A DNA stretch of 64,000 nt. Origin: Streptomyces broussonetiae (GTDB lineage Bacteria > Actinomycetota > Actinomycetes > Streptomycetales > Streptomycetaceae). This document shows, one piece after another, positions 47,615 through 53,133 of this stretch. The translations under genes and the position numbers were made by a program. Each line of letters opens with the position of its first letter. Positions within the stretch are counted from its first letter, which is position 1. The stretch covers positions 8,308,001 through 8,372,000 of the forward strand of contig NZ_CP047020.1 in NCBI RefSeq assembly GCF_009796285.1, given 5' to 3'. Below the pieces are notes generated by a model that did no database searches, was not told the origin of the DNA, and saw only the letters and a list, made by a program, of their open reading frames with translations.

Positions 47615-48700
47615 TCACCAGCACATGACCGCTGTCTCTCCCGATCCCCACGTCGAGTACAGCCGGACCCGGACGACATAGCGGCGGCCCTTGACGAGCC
47701 GTACCCGGACGGCGGCGTTGTCCGGCGCGCCGCCGTCGTCGTGGCCCGCGAGGAAACGCGGTTCCCCGTCGCGCTCCTCGAAGACCACGAGCACGGTGTC
47801 GGCGTCGCCGAAGGTGCCCACGGTGTAGTCGCGGGTCTCCGGCGGCTCGACGGTGAAGTCGGCCTGCTCGCCCGGACCGAGCCCGAGCGGCGCCGAACGG
47901 AACGGCACGAGCGCGGCCGGAGCGGCCGGGTCGGCCGGCGGATACCAGCGGAGCACGAACTCCTTGTCCGCCGGGGACGGGGCACCGGACGGACGCAGCC
48001 CCCCGCGGTACTGCTCCGGCTCCAGCACCAGCCCCGGCCCGAACGGGAACGTCATGATCGAGTGCGGATCCCACACCGAACCGCTGGCCTCGCCGGCCTC
48101 GAGCGTGTGCAGGACGTTCGTGTCCGTCGTCTCCCGGTTCCAGAAGTTCGGCGGGCCCGCCAGCTCGGCGTACACGGCCTCGTCGTCCCAGTGGAGCCCG
48201 GCGTACGGGCTCTGGTGCTCGTGCGCCATGCCGAGTGCGTGCCCGATCACGTGCAGGACCGTCGCATGCTCCCCGGGCCAGGTCACATCCCAGCCCAGGT
48301 TCATGGTGCGTTCGCCCCGGCCGACCGACAGCGCCTCCCGGCCCACCGCCGACCAGGAGCCGCCGCCGGTCTGGAACCCGATCCGCAGCTCCGCCTCGTG
48401 CCGGTCGCCGACCTCGGCGAACGTGACACCGATGCCGAGCCCCTGCCACTCGCGGAAGCAGGCGCGTACCGCGTCCCGCTGCGCCTCGCCGCCGGCCCAC
48501 GGCACCCGGCGCAGCTCCCCGGTCCCGGGGACCGGGATCACCGAGGCGGCACAGACGTCGTCGTAGAAGTAGTAGTGCAGGACCGTGCCGTTGACCCACA
48601 TCCGCCGCCCGGCGAGCAGCGCGCCCAGCCGCTCGGCCGTCAGCCCCGGGGCGAAGCACGGGGCCGGCTGCCGCGGTAGCGAGCAGAGGCGTCGGGTCAT
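47615..48700 (-). CDS. M12-like (astacin/matrixin) metallopeptidase homologue with lost catalytic Glu
   Basis: 361 residues. An N-terminal metallopeptidase domain shows MWVNGTVLHYYFYDD, REWQGLGIGVTFAEVGDRHEAELRIGFQTGGGSWSAVGREAL, the zinc motif HVIGHALGMAHEH (residues 150-162) and a Met-turn DPHSIMTFPF near residue 215. The normal motif is HExxHxxGxxHEH. Here the first two residues are His150-Val151, encoded by CAC GTG where a Glu would be GAG: one base away. All three zinc His remain. The C-terminal part (after about residue 250) is a beta-rich domain. The start at 48700 lacks a clear ribosome site. Divergent from the LuxR gene; likely part of the CHAT-S8-sigma block. Confidence 0.8.
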   Translation of the reverse strand: MTRRLCSLPRQPAPCFAPGLTAERLGALLAGRRMWVNGTVLHYYFYDDVCAASVIPVPGTGELRRVPWAGGEAQRDAVRACFREWQGLGIGVTFAEVGDRHEAELRIGFQTGGGSWSAVGREALSVGRGERTMNLGWDVTWPGEHATVLHVIGHALGMAHEHQSPYAGLHWDDEAVYAELAGPPNFWNRETTDTNVLHTLEAGEASGSVWDPHSIMTFPFGPGLVLEPEQYRGGLRPSGAPSPADKEFVLRWYPPADPAAPAALVPFRSAPLGLGPGEQADFTVEPPETRDYTVGTFGDADTVLVVFEERDGEPRFLAGHDDGGAPDNAAVRVRLVKGRRYVVRVRLYSTWGSGETAVMCW

Positions 48701-48795: not shown

Positions 48796-50514
48796 GTGAG
48801 GACTTACGAACAGGACGCGACGACACCGGTGCCGCCCTGGCCGTTCACCGGCCGGGACGAGGAACTCGAGCTGGTCCGCGGGGCGTGGGCCGCCGGGCGG
48901 CACGGCATCGTGGTGACCGGCCCGGCCGGCCACGGCAAGACCCGGTTGATCGCGGAGGCGGTCCGGGGCACCGACCATGCCCGGGTGACCGGCACACCCG
49001 AGGCCCGTGACCTGCCCTTCGCCGCCTTCGCACACCTGCTGCCCGACGGTGTCTCGCCGCAGCGCGCGGTCCAGATCCTGTCCGGGGTACGGCTCCTCGT
49101 CGTGGACGACGCCCACCTGCTGGACGAGGCCTCCGCCGCCCTCGTCCACCAGCTCGCCGTGCACGGCCGCACCCGGCTCGTCGTGGCCGCGGTGGACGGT
49201 GTGCCCGCACCGGGCGCGGTGTCCCGGCTGTGGACCGGGGAACTGCTGCCCCGACTTGCCCTGGCGCCACTGCCGTTCGAGGACGTGGCGCAGCTGCTCA
49301 CCGCGACCGGCCTGGAAACGCTCACCGTGCGCCGTCTGTACGCCGTGTGCCGGGGCGACCTGCGGCTGCTGCGCGACCTGGTGACCACGCTCTGCGTGGA
49401 CGGCCGGCTGACGCCCGTTGCGGGCACCGGCGAGCGGGCCTGGCGCGGCGCGCTGCCGCTCACCCCGGCCGTGCGCGAGCGGCTCGCCCCGGTGCTCGAA
49501 CGATCCGCCGTCGCCGAGCGGGAGACGCTGGAACGCCTTGCGTTCGCGGAGCCGTTGCCGCTGCCGCTCGACGACCTGGACCTGGACGTCCTGGAGCGTC
49601 TGGAGACGGACGGTCTGATCCACGTCGACGACCAAGGCGGTGCCGTCGCCCTCGCCGACCCGCTGCACGGCCCCGCCCTGCGCGCCGGGGCCGGCCGGCT
49701 GCGCGCCCGCCGGCTGACGCGTGCCCCTCGCGATGTCGGACCGGACCTCGAGAGCGAACAGCGAGCCCTGGTAGGGGCGATCGAGCGGCTCGACGTCCGG
49801 GCGGTGCCCACTCCGGTGGGGGAGTGGGTGGTGGCGGAGGGAGCCCGGGTCCCGGCCGGATACGCCGCCGTGCGGGCCCGGTTCGCCCGGCTGCGGGGCG
49901 AGCTGCGCGACGCCGCCGCCTGGGCCCGCGAGGGGCTGCGCAGCGCACCGGGGGACAGTGGCTGCCGTACGGAACTGAGGCTGGCCGACGGGGAGTTGAA
50001 TGAAGGGGACGACGTCTACGCGCGGTACGACTCCGTACGTCTGGGGGAGCCCGGGCGGTCCGTGCGGGAGCTGCCCGCGGGCAGTGTGTTCGCGCAGCAC
50101 GCCGAAGCGCTGACGCTCGGGGACGGCGGCGGACTGGACCGTGCCGCCGAGGAACTGCGGGAGCGGGGGTTCCTGCTCTTCGCCGCCGAGGCGCACGCGC
50201 AGGCCGTACGGGCCCACCGGGATCCGCGTGCCGCCCGGCGCTCACGCACCCGCGCGGTTGCCCTCGCGCGCCGCTGCCAGGGAGCGCGCACACCGGTGCT
50301 GGCAGGTCTCGTCCTCGGTGAACTGACCGCCCGGCAGCGCCAGATCGTGACCCTCGCGGCGGCGGGGCTGAGCAACCGGGAGATCGCCGAACGGCTCACG
50401 CTGTCCGTGCGGACCGTCGGCAACCATCTGTACAGCGCCTACACACGGCTCGGAACCGGGGACCGAGGGGCGTTGCCCTGGTTGGTGGAGTTGCCGCAGT
50501 GCGCGTCGGCATAG
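48796..50514 (+). CDS. ATP-binding LuxR family regulator (LAL-type)
   Basis: 572 residues, GTG start. The N-terminal AAA/STAND-like ATPase has Walker A GPAGHGKTR at residues 42-50 and a Walker B-like RLLVVDDAHLLDEASAALVHQL near residue 105, shorter than the 900-residue LAL proteins. The middle is helical, Ala/Arg-rich. The C-terminus has a LuxR HTH: LTARQRQIVTLAAAGLSNREIAERLTLSVRTVGNHLYSAYTRLG, residues 510-556. It senses through ATP-dependent change. Divergent from the metallopeptidase gene and convergent with the CHAT gene. It may control both divergent promoters of the block. Confidence 0.9.
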   Translation: MRTYEQDATTPVPPWPFTGRDEELELVRGAWAAGRHGIVVTGPAGHGKTRLIAEAVRGTDHARVTGTPEARDLPFAAFAHLLPDGVSPQRAVQILSGVRLLVVDDAHLLDEASAALVHQLAVHGRTRLVVAAVDGVPAPGAVSRLWTGELLPRLALAPLPFEDVAQLLTATGLETLTVRRLYAVCRGDLRLLRDLVTTLCVDGRLTPVAGTGERAWRGALPLTPAVRERLAPVLERSAVAERETLERLAFAEPLPLPLDDLDLDVLERLETDGLIHVDDQGGAVALADPLHGPALRAGAGRLRARRLTRAPRDVGPDLESEQRALVGAIERLDVRAVPTPVGEWVVAEGARVPAGYAAVRARFARLRGELRDAAAWAREGLRSAPGDSGCRTELRLADGELNEGDDVYARYDSVRLGEPGRSVRELPAGSVFAQHAEALTLGDGGGLDRAAEELRERGFLLFAAEAHAQAVRAHRDPRAARRSRTRAVALARRCQGARTPVLAGLVLGELTARQRQIVTLAAAGLSNREIAERLTLSVRTVGNHLYSAYTRLGTGDRGALPWLVELPQCASA

Positions 50515-50520
50515 CAGCGC

Positions 50521-53133
50521 TCAGGCCGCCCCGAACGCCGCGAACGCCCACCCCGTCGCCTGGTGGACCGGGTCGCCCGGCAGGGCGCTGCGGGCGTCGC
50601 GCAGGGCCTCGGCGAGCGACAGGCCCGCATCGAGGCCCTTGTGCAGGGCCAGCATCAGGGGGACCACCGCCGCGTCGTTGACCGGGGCGCTGCTCGCCAC
50701 CACCCCGGCCGTGCCCAGCGGGAGCAACGCCGTGACCAGGCCGAGGAGTTCGTCGGCGCCGACCGAGGCGAGGCGGGCCGTGTCGCAGCTGGAGAGGATG
50801 ATCCGGTACGGGCTGCGGGCCAGGCGCTCGAAGTCGTGCACGATCAGCGGGCCGTCGGCCATCCGCAGACTGCTGAACAGCGGGCTGTCCGCGCGAAACG
50901 TGCCGTGCGCCGCGAGATGGGCGAGGGCCGCGCCGTCGAGGTGCTCCAGGACCCGGGGGACCTGGGCGTCGTCCCCCTCCAGGACCGTCGCCGTGCCGTA
51001 CCGGCCCGTCAGTTCCGGCACCTCGGCGCCGCCGGTGGCGAGGCCGGGGCCGCGCACCAGGACGTGCCGGCCGCCCGGCGGCGGCTCGGTCTCGCGAGCG
51101 CGCAGCCAACTGCCCGCCGACGGGGAGACGCTGAGCACCCGCTCGCGCAGCGCGGGCAGCAGCGCCCACGGCACGCGGTGCAGGGCGCCCGGCGGCACGA
51201 TCACCACGGGACCGGCGCCAAGATGCTGCGCGGCCCCGCCCAGCAGCAGCTCCTGCAGTCGCCGCCCGCCCGCCTCCACCAGCGGCAGCCGTGCCTCGGC
51301 GCCGGGGTGGGCGAGCCGCCGCAGGCCCGCCTGGACGTACTCGGCCTCGGCCATCGCCTCCGTCAGCGGGCCGCCCGCGAACCGCCGCACCCGGCCCTGT
51401 CCGCACAGCAGCACGTGCACCCGCCCGTCCACGACGGCGAGTTCGACCAGGCGGGCGTCGCCGAGCCGGTCCAGCAGCCGGACCGTGTCGAAGCGGTCCC
51501 CGCCGTGTGGCGCGGCACCGCGGATGTGATGGGTGCGGGAGCGGATCTCCCGCTCCAGACGCCGCCGTTCGCGCTCCAGAGCGGGCACCGGACGGCCCTC
51601 CATCCGGGCCTCCTCCGCACGCGCCGCTATCTCCCGGTAGGCGGTCAGACCGCTCAGCAGCGCCGGGTCGGCGGGCGGCCGGGTGGGCGGCGCGGACAGC
51701 ACGGTCGACCGCCAGCGCTCGCTCCACTCCAGCAGCCGCCGCGGACTGCCCTGGGCGAGGCCCACCTCCTGGGCGAGCGCCGCCAGTTCGGCCCCCTGCG
51801 CGGTCGTGCGGGCCCGCAGCTCCGAGGCGCCGAGCGTCATCCGGTGGTCGTCCAGTACATCCAGGCCGCGCCGGCACGCCTCCAGCACCCCGCGCCGGGA
51901 CCCGGCGGCGCGGGCCCTGAGCGCCTGCGCCGCCCATCCCGTCACCCTTGCCTGCGGCGGGCCGCCGTACCGGCTGCGCGCGGCGACCGCCAGATGCCGT
52001 TCCGCGTCCGCCGTCCAGCCCAGCGCCAGCGCGATCCGGCCCGCGAGCAGCGAGGCGTCCGGGGCGGCGGGCGAACCGAAGGAGGCCAGCTTCTCGGCGA
52101 CCGCCGCCGCGTCCGCGACCAGCCGCCCCGACCGGCGCCCGGCCGCCACCCGGGCCTCCGTCAGCACCAGCCGGGCATGCGTCTCCCACCACATCCGTCG
52201 CTGCGCCGCGAACAGCCGTACGGCCACGGCGGCGCGGGCGACGGCGGTGTGCGGGTCCCCGGCCGAGCAGGCGGCGCGCGCGGCGGCCAGCAGCACCTCG
52301 GCCTTGCGGGTGGACTGCCCGCCGATCCGGTCCAGGAACGCGATCGTCGTGTCCGCCTCGGCCAGCGCCTCCGGGGCCAGTCCGGCCGCCATCAGCACCT
52401 CGCAGCGCCGGATGGACAGCATGTACGTCGGGGTGCCGAGCTTGGCGTAGCGCTCCTCGGCCTCGTCCAGCAGCCGCAGCGCCGCCGGGATGTCCCCGGA
52501 GCGGAACGCGGCCAGCCCCCGGCTCTCCACCGCGTCGGCCTTGTCGTGCTCCTGGCCGGTGGTGTCCCACAGCCGCTCGGCCGCCGTGAAGTCGGCGTCC
52601 GCCCGGTCCACCGCGCCGAGCGCCAGATGCACGGTGGCCCGCAGGGTCAGCGCCCGTGCGGTCCAGATGTCGTCGCCGACCTGCCGCAGCACCGGCAGGG
52701 CCCGCCGTACGTCCTCCAGCGCCTCCCGGTGGTGGCCCAGCACCCACCACACGTACGCCCGCCGGTACAGCACCCTGGCCCGGGTGTGGCCGCTGCCCCG
52801 CGCGACCCCGCGCTCGAAGGAGGTGAGCCCCTGCCGCGTGCGCCCCGCATGCACCAGTGCGACCCCGAGTGTCGCGAGCACGTCGGCCTCCCGGTCGGCC
52901 GACTCGGCGCGCGCGGCCAGGTCCCGGGCCCGGCGCAGATGCCCGAGCGCGATCCGCAGATCGCCGAAGTCCCGCTGCCAGATGCCGAGAACCTGGTGGG
53001 CGACGCTGGCGTTGAGCGGTGGCGGAGCGGCCTGCAGCACCTGTTCCGCGCGCGCCCGGGCCGCGCCCGGGTCGGCGAAGACCAAGGGCAGCAGTTCGGA
53101 AACTGTTTCGCTTCCCGCTGTCACGTCTCGCAT
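50521..53133 (-). CDS. TPR-CHAT domain protein (caspase-like)
   Basis: 870 residues. Residues 1-440 are TPR-like helical repeats (such as ADREADVLATLGVALVHAGRTRQGLTSFERGVARG, HREALEDVRRALPVLRQVGDD). Residues 560-870 are a CHAT domain, the caspase/HetF-type peptidase: the catalytic His743 lies in LAHLAAHGTF and Cys783 in ILSSCDTARL, with the usual LPLGTAGVVASSAPVNDAA and C-terminal HQATGWAFAAFG. Both dyad residues are present, so it is probably active. TPR-CHAT proteins sense a signal through the repeats and cleave a partner. Divergent from the S8 peptidase gene. Confidence 0.93.
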   Translation of the reverse strand: MRDVTAGSETVSELLPLVFADPGAARARAEQVLQAAPPPLNASVAHQVLGIWQRDFGDLRIALGHLRRARDLAARAESADREADVLATLGVALVHAGRTRQGLTSFERGVARGSGHTRARVLYRRAYVWWVLGHHREALEDVRRALPVLRQVGDDIWTARALTLRATVHLALGAVDRADADFTAAERLWDTTGQEHDKADAVESRGLAAFRSGDIPAALRLLDEAEERYAKLGTPTYMLSIRRCEVLMAAGLAPEALAEADTTIAFLDRIGGQSTRKAEVLLAAARAACSAGDPHTAVARAAVAVRLFAAQRRMWWETHARLVLTEARVAAGRRSGRLVADAAAVAEKLASFGSPAAPDASLLAGRIALALGWTADAERHLAVAARSRYGGPPQARVTGWAAQALRARAAGSRRGVLEACRRGLDVLDDHRMTLGASELRARTTAQGAELAALAQEVGLAQGSPRRLLEWSERWRSTVLSAPPTRPPADPALLSGLTAYREIAARAEEARMEGRPVPALERERRRLEREIRSRTHHIRGAAPHGGDRFDTVRLLDRLGDARLVELAVVDGRVHVLLCGQGRVRRFAGGPLTEAMAEAEYVQAGLRRLAHPGAEARLPLVEAGGRRLQELLLGGAAQHLGAGPVVIVPPGALHRVPWALLPALRERVLSVSPSAGSWLRARETEPPPGGRHVLVRGPGLATGGAEVPELTGRYGTATVLEGDDAQVPRVLEHLDGAALAHLAAHGTFRADSPLFSSLRMADGPLIVHDFERLARSPYRIILSSCDTARLASVGADELLGLVTALLPLGTAGVVASSAPVNDAAVVPLMLALHKGLDAGLSLAEALRDARSALPGDPVHQATGWAFAAFGAA

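Follow-up and report, generated by a model that had tools for sequence, protein, structure and literature searches.

The locus analysed here, part of a 64,000-nucleotide stretch of the Streptomyces broussonetiae genome (hereafter, the window), raises the question of whether a protein that displays the zinc-binding motif of a metallopeptidase, with valine in the place of the general-base glutamate, is a misread protease, a decaying one or a pseudopeptidase maintained for another function. The corresponding gene is a minus-strand open reading frame which extends from an ATG at 48700 to a stop at 47615 and encodes 361 amino acids (Table 1). Its product matches the NCBIfam profile NF050131 (AbsR1) with 700.4 bits over residues 1–361 of 361, the curated whole-protein cutoff being 650 bits over the full model, and is a member of the Streptomyces AbsR1/SCO6992 family. 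Specifically, it is a full-length orthologue of SCO6992 (AbsR1) of S. coelicolor, ~70% identical to the SCO6992-like relatives, with which it shares a divergent absR2 neighbour and a zinc motif devoid of the catalytic Glu; in the SCO6992-like loci this residue is Gln, and the S. coelicolor-like group combines Gln with the Met-turn Tyr, as opposed to Val151 and Phe218 in the window protein. All 62 aligned members, including paralogues with 50% identity, match NF050131 at E-values of up to 0.001.

Table 1. Features of the absR1–absR2 locus, with coordinates given as positions in the window.
Feature	Coordinates	Strand	Remarks
absR1 orthologue	47615..48700	-	361 aa; family score, structure model, alignments
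absR1 parts			Short N-terminal segment; myroilysin-like metzincin domain, ~68-257; C-terminal beta-sandwich, ~265-361
Cys6 codon	48683..48685	-	No change of Cys among orthologues or outparalogues; possible additional ligand of the zinc, as in a cysteine switch
Zinc-binding motif HVIGHALGMAHEH, residues 150-162	48215..48253	-	His150/154/160 and Glu161 invariant in 166 distinct sequences
GTG at codon 151, Val instead of general-base Glu	48248..48250	-	E/Q/V/A/T among orthologues
Met-turn SIMTF, residues 214-218	48047..48061	-	Ser214 and Met216 invariant; position 218 is Phe here
absR2 orthologue, LuxR-type regulator	48796..50514	+	572 aa; AAA/P-loop N-terminus, GerE DNA-binding domain; divergent

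The Pfam Astacin profile recognizes the window protein with 27.4 bits (cutoff 22.5), and an AlphaFold2 model generated from 62 homologues (mean pLDDT 85, pTM 0.84; low confidence at the N-terminus, which contains the invariant Cys6) yields myroilysin as the best fold match (TM 0.87, normalised to myroilysin), followed by astacins, meprins and serralysins. Matches that extend over just ~100 columns fit the C-terminal sandwich and include the collagenase pre-peptidase C-terminal and collagen-binding domains. Myroilysin (M12A; PDB 5GWD, 5ZJK) is the closest solved structure, with ~30% identity, and its structures are the sole close solved relatives of the window protein; the alignment spans the active site, bringing the HExGHALGMxHEHQ region and the Met-turn into register. 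Given the full-length AbsR1 score and this alignment over the active site, the motif is not a chance resemblance. Myroilysin itself is a secreted, active elastase that carries the Glu, whereas the window AbsR1 adds a beta-sandwich domain; no signal peptide was evident by eye in AbsR1.

The hallmarks of the metzincins, namely, the HxxxHxxGxxH zinc ligands and the Met-turn, are present in the window protein, and the three His, the Gly and the Met are invariant in the family. The two residues that mark active enzymes are both replaced: the general-base Glu that follows the first zinc His in active metzincin peptidases is Val151, encoded by GTG, and the Tyr of the SxMxY Met-turn of active astacin-type peptidases, which in this family lies two positions past the Met, is Phe218, so that a second catalytic-site residue is altered. 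With both Glu and Tyr lost, peptide hydrolysis by the metzincin mechanism is not expected, and, as far as can be judged from the sequence, the window protein would bind zinc and be proteolytically inactive. An earlier note on this DNA had correctly placed the Val-containing motif, HVIGHALGMAHEH, at residues 150–162, with the GTG of codon 151 at 48250–48248; the interval it assigned, 48241–48260, covers the start of the motif but not the rest, which runs from 48253 to 48215. Its observation that the three zinc His and the SIMTF Met-turn are retained is borne out (His150/154/160 and residues 214–218), although the change of Tyr to Phe218 within that turn had been overlooked. A comparable constellation is known from the pseudopeptidases ADAM7 and ADAM29 (HQLGHNLGMQHD and HHLGHNLGMNHD; PMC11266112), in which the three zinc His are kept and the general-base Glu is replaced, as in AbsR1; unlike the bacterial AbsR1, which is tied to a transcription regulator, these are multidomain membrane proteins of animals. 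Metzincin pseudopeptidases are thus far known chiefly as animal ADAMs, and a 2024 review does not mention Streptomyces.

A sequencing error was among the options entertained in the earlier note, and GTG is indeed one base away from the commonest codon at this position. However, comparison with homologues from other strains, which that note had proposed, recovered the identical GTG in four further distinct orthologue sequences deposited in separate records (L002, L033, L003/L031 from S. monashensis, and L045), close relatives have CAG or GCG at this codon, and the genome that contains the window is assembled as one contig of 9.74 Mb. The five Val sequences form one clade with a support of 93 and are mostly separated by dS values of 0.15–0.22, with L002 and L033 being near-identical; by parsimony, Val arose from Gln rather than straight from Glu. 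Given the recurrence of GTG, an error of sequencing or assembly at this codon was rejected, its probability being negligible. Val151 is real.

Substitutions at this position extend well beyond the Val clade. Among 158 distinct full-length Streptomyces orthologues, residue 151 is Glu in 109, Gln in 42, Val in five, and Ala and Thr in one each, and residue 218 is Tyr, Phe, Leu, Ala or Ser across the family, the Met-turn Tyr being absent also from some of the Glu-bearing orthologues. Cys6, His150, Gly153, His154, Gly157, His160, Glu161, His162, Gln163, Ser214 and Met216, by contrast, never change in 166 sequences, outparalogues included. With columns 151, 217 and 218 left out of the codon tree, at least 10 switches between Glu and non-Glu are counted, and eight independent contrasts lie on well-supported branches. 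Parsimony rooted on the outparalogues, all of which have Glu at position 151, infers 12 changes at position 151, 12 at position 218 (Tyr to Phe, Leu, Ala or Ser) and none at the zinc ligands. At position 151, Gln replaces Glu at the base of two clades (33 and 25 members) and again in two single tips, Thr replaces Glu once, and Val and Ala each arise from Gln; there are also several returns to Glu, which parsimony does not firmly separate from repeated losses of Glu. Variation at the Glu position next to zinc ligands that never change supports the pseudo-enzyme option of the earlier note. Its corollary, that correction of an error would leave an ordinary protease, fares less well, being at odds both with the free variation of position 151 and the Met-turn Tyr family-wide and with the lack of protease activity in the tested member of the AbsR1 family (PMC9705864).

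Correlated loss of Glu151 and Tyr218 was considered and rejected: in raw counts, 90 of the 109 Glu sequences also carry Tyr at position 218, but the association loses significance once independent contrasts are used, as Tyr differs in only ~1/8 pairs. A second paralogue, ~50% identical and found in some Streptomyces (L182–L189), retains Glu as well as the Met-turn Tyr in each of the eight copies examined, and both residues are also kept in the more distant actinobacterial homologues L218 and L219.

Median pairwise dN/dS amounts to 0.23 for the Val sequences, 0.27 for the near Gln clade, 0.33 for the coelicolor-type Gln sequences and 0.28 for the Glu/Tyr sequences, and the values of ~0.2–0.3 in the Glu-less lineages indicate that these lineages are under selection. 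Decay of the window gene was rejected on the basis of dN/dS and the conserved zinc ligands. The same data bear on a broader scenario, whereby the Glu-bearing AbsR1 are active proteases and the Val, Gln, Ala and Thr forms are recent losses, that is, dominant-negative or decaying copies in some lineages. Such losses would fit the presence of Glu in all outparalogues and distant homologues in which the motif was read, as well as the occurrence of clearly broken copies in some genomes (L234, L235 and L238), but dN/dS is not relaxed in the Val or Gln clades, the zinc His, Glu161 and Met216 are invariant, the two main Gln clades hold 20 Gln members each rather than lone tips, and the Met-turn Tyr is missing in some Glu-bearing members too. 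We consider this scenario unlikely as an account of the family; given that 69% of the orthologues have Glu, some lineages may keep a proteolytic role. The repeated replacement of Glu by Gln, Val, Ala or Thr under purifying selection points, rather, to a selected function that does not need Glu-dependent proteolysis. The three broken copies, from other Streptomyces, differ in kind: L234 (252–931) combines an internal deletion with Arg151 (HRIGH), L235 (218–1299) a frame shift, and L238 (765–949) consists of remnants only.

The published work on SCO6992 can be re-examined in this light. SCO6992 stimulates actinorhodin and undecylprodigiosin, and SCO6993 is its antagonist, which represses antibiotic genes (PMC9705864, PMC9628970). 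An MBP-SCO6992 fusion responded to Zn in CD spectra and lacked protease activity, beta-glucuronidase activity being reported instead; glutamate is nowhere named in that paper, the legend of one figure listing three His, Gly and Tyr as the most conserved residues (PMC9705864). Four published SCO6992 primers were compared, two used for cloning (PMC9705864) and two for qPCR (PMC3610822). Loci L176/L224 and L174/L225, in two genomes, match all four exactly, and Gln occupies position 151, in the motif HQIGHALGMLHEH (HQIGH), at every locus with up to four mismatches to the set. The published SmaI and SphI-PstI fragment sizes were matched by none of the 10 loci examined. Judging from the exact primer matches in close relatives, the assayed SCO6992 most likely has Gln and no general base, which would account for the negative protease result.

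Alternatively, AbsR1 might be a genuine beta-glucuronidase, as claimed for MBP-SCO6992, with a metzincin fold that has become a glycosidase, either zinc-assisted or independent of zinc. The published activity was on p-nitrophenyl- and AS-BI-glucuronide, a zymogram band was seen in the SCO6992 strain only, the NCBI family is named for this activity, and freedom at position 151 suits a non-protease. However, the published assay included no active-site mutant and the zinc effect was not significant, glucuronic acid left the pigment unaffected, and the 50 best fold matches listed contain a weak match to a CBM6 carbohydrate-binding module and no glycoside hydrolase catalytic domain. Furthermore, the host of the assayed protein was E. 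coli JM109, a K-12 derivative with a uidA gene of its own. We consider the glucuronidase claim weakly supported, and it is quite improbable that AbsR1 is such a glycosidase. The 'beta-glucuronidase' name of NF050131 goes back to one published report on a single MBP fusion protein.

The start codons of absR1 and absR2 are 95 bp apart in the window, and 79 of 80 orthologue loci have absR2 next to absR1 in divergent orientation, with a spacing of ~95 bp being typical regardless of residue 151. In a sample of 40 genomes, AbsR2 was present in 20/20 with AbsR1 and 0/20 without (Fisher p ~1e-11, with phylogeny ignored); absR1 and absR2 travel as one unit. The neighbour in the window is the orthologue of the LuxR/LAL repressor AbsR2/SCO6993, from which it differs in length (572 aa versus 606 aa) and which represses actinorhodin and undecylprodigiosin in S. 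coelicolor (PMC9628970). The gene pairing, the co-occurrence and the opposite phenotypes suggest that AbsR1 controls AbsR2 directly. We know of no physical contact between the two proteins.

Taken together, these observations make it likely that the AbsR1 orthologue of the window, a myroilysin-type metzincin with an intact zinc site from which both the general-base Glu and the Met-turn Tyr have been lost, serves as a zinc-binding pseudopeptidase. The zinc site and the cleft would stabilise the fold or accommodate a ligand or a peptide, perhaps Cys6 from the N-terminus of AbsR1 itself, and antibiotic biosynthesis would be controlled by AbsR1 together with AbsR2, the LuxR-type repressor encoded divergently from it. 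The zinc of myroilysin is subject to a Cys switch, whereby a Cys of pro-myroilysin caps the zinc, and, by analogy, Cys6 may be the zinc-capping residue of AbsR1. More tentatively, and with somewhat less than even confidence, the whole AbsR1 family could be viewed as a bacterial pseudo-metzincin dependent on zinc, whose former active site senses or binds a small ligand or peptide and which controls the paired LuxR-type repressor, zinc coordination being the conserved function and the catalytic Glu a neutral position that changes freely.

The AbsR1 family is already known; repeated loss of the general base within a bacterial antibiotic-regulatory family is apparently new, no such case having been found in a limited literature search. 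A pseudopeptidase would explain the puzzling published result of a metalloprotease motif yet no protease activity and casts doubt on the NCBI family name, and the natural Glu/Gln/Val/Ala/Thr series of one active site renders the zinc role of a pseudopeptidase directly testable in antibiotic producers. As for the partner gene, AbsR2 varies in length, with 572 aa in the window, open frames of 589–598 aa in five genomes checked and ~620–670 aa in most others, the alignments of these longer versions mostly breaking near residue 400. On its other side, absR2 adjoins a gene (50521–53133, minus strand) for an 870 aa protein with TPR repeats and a CHAT domain, the latter being a caspase-like peptidase domain.
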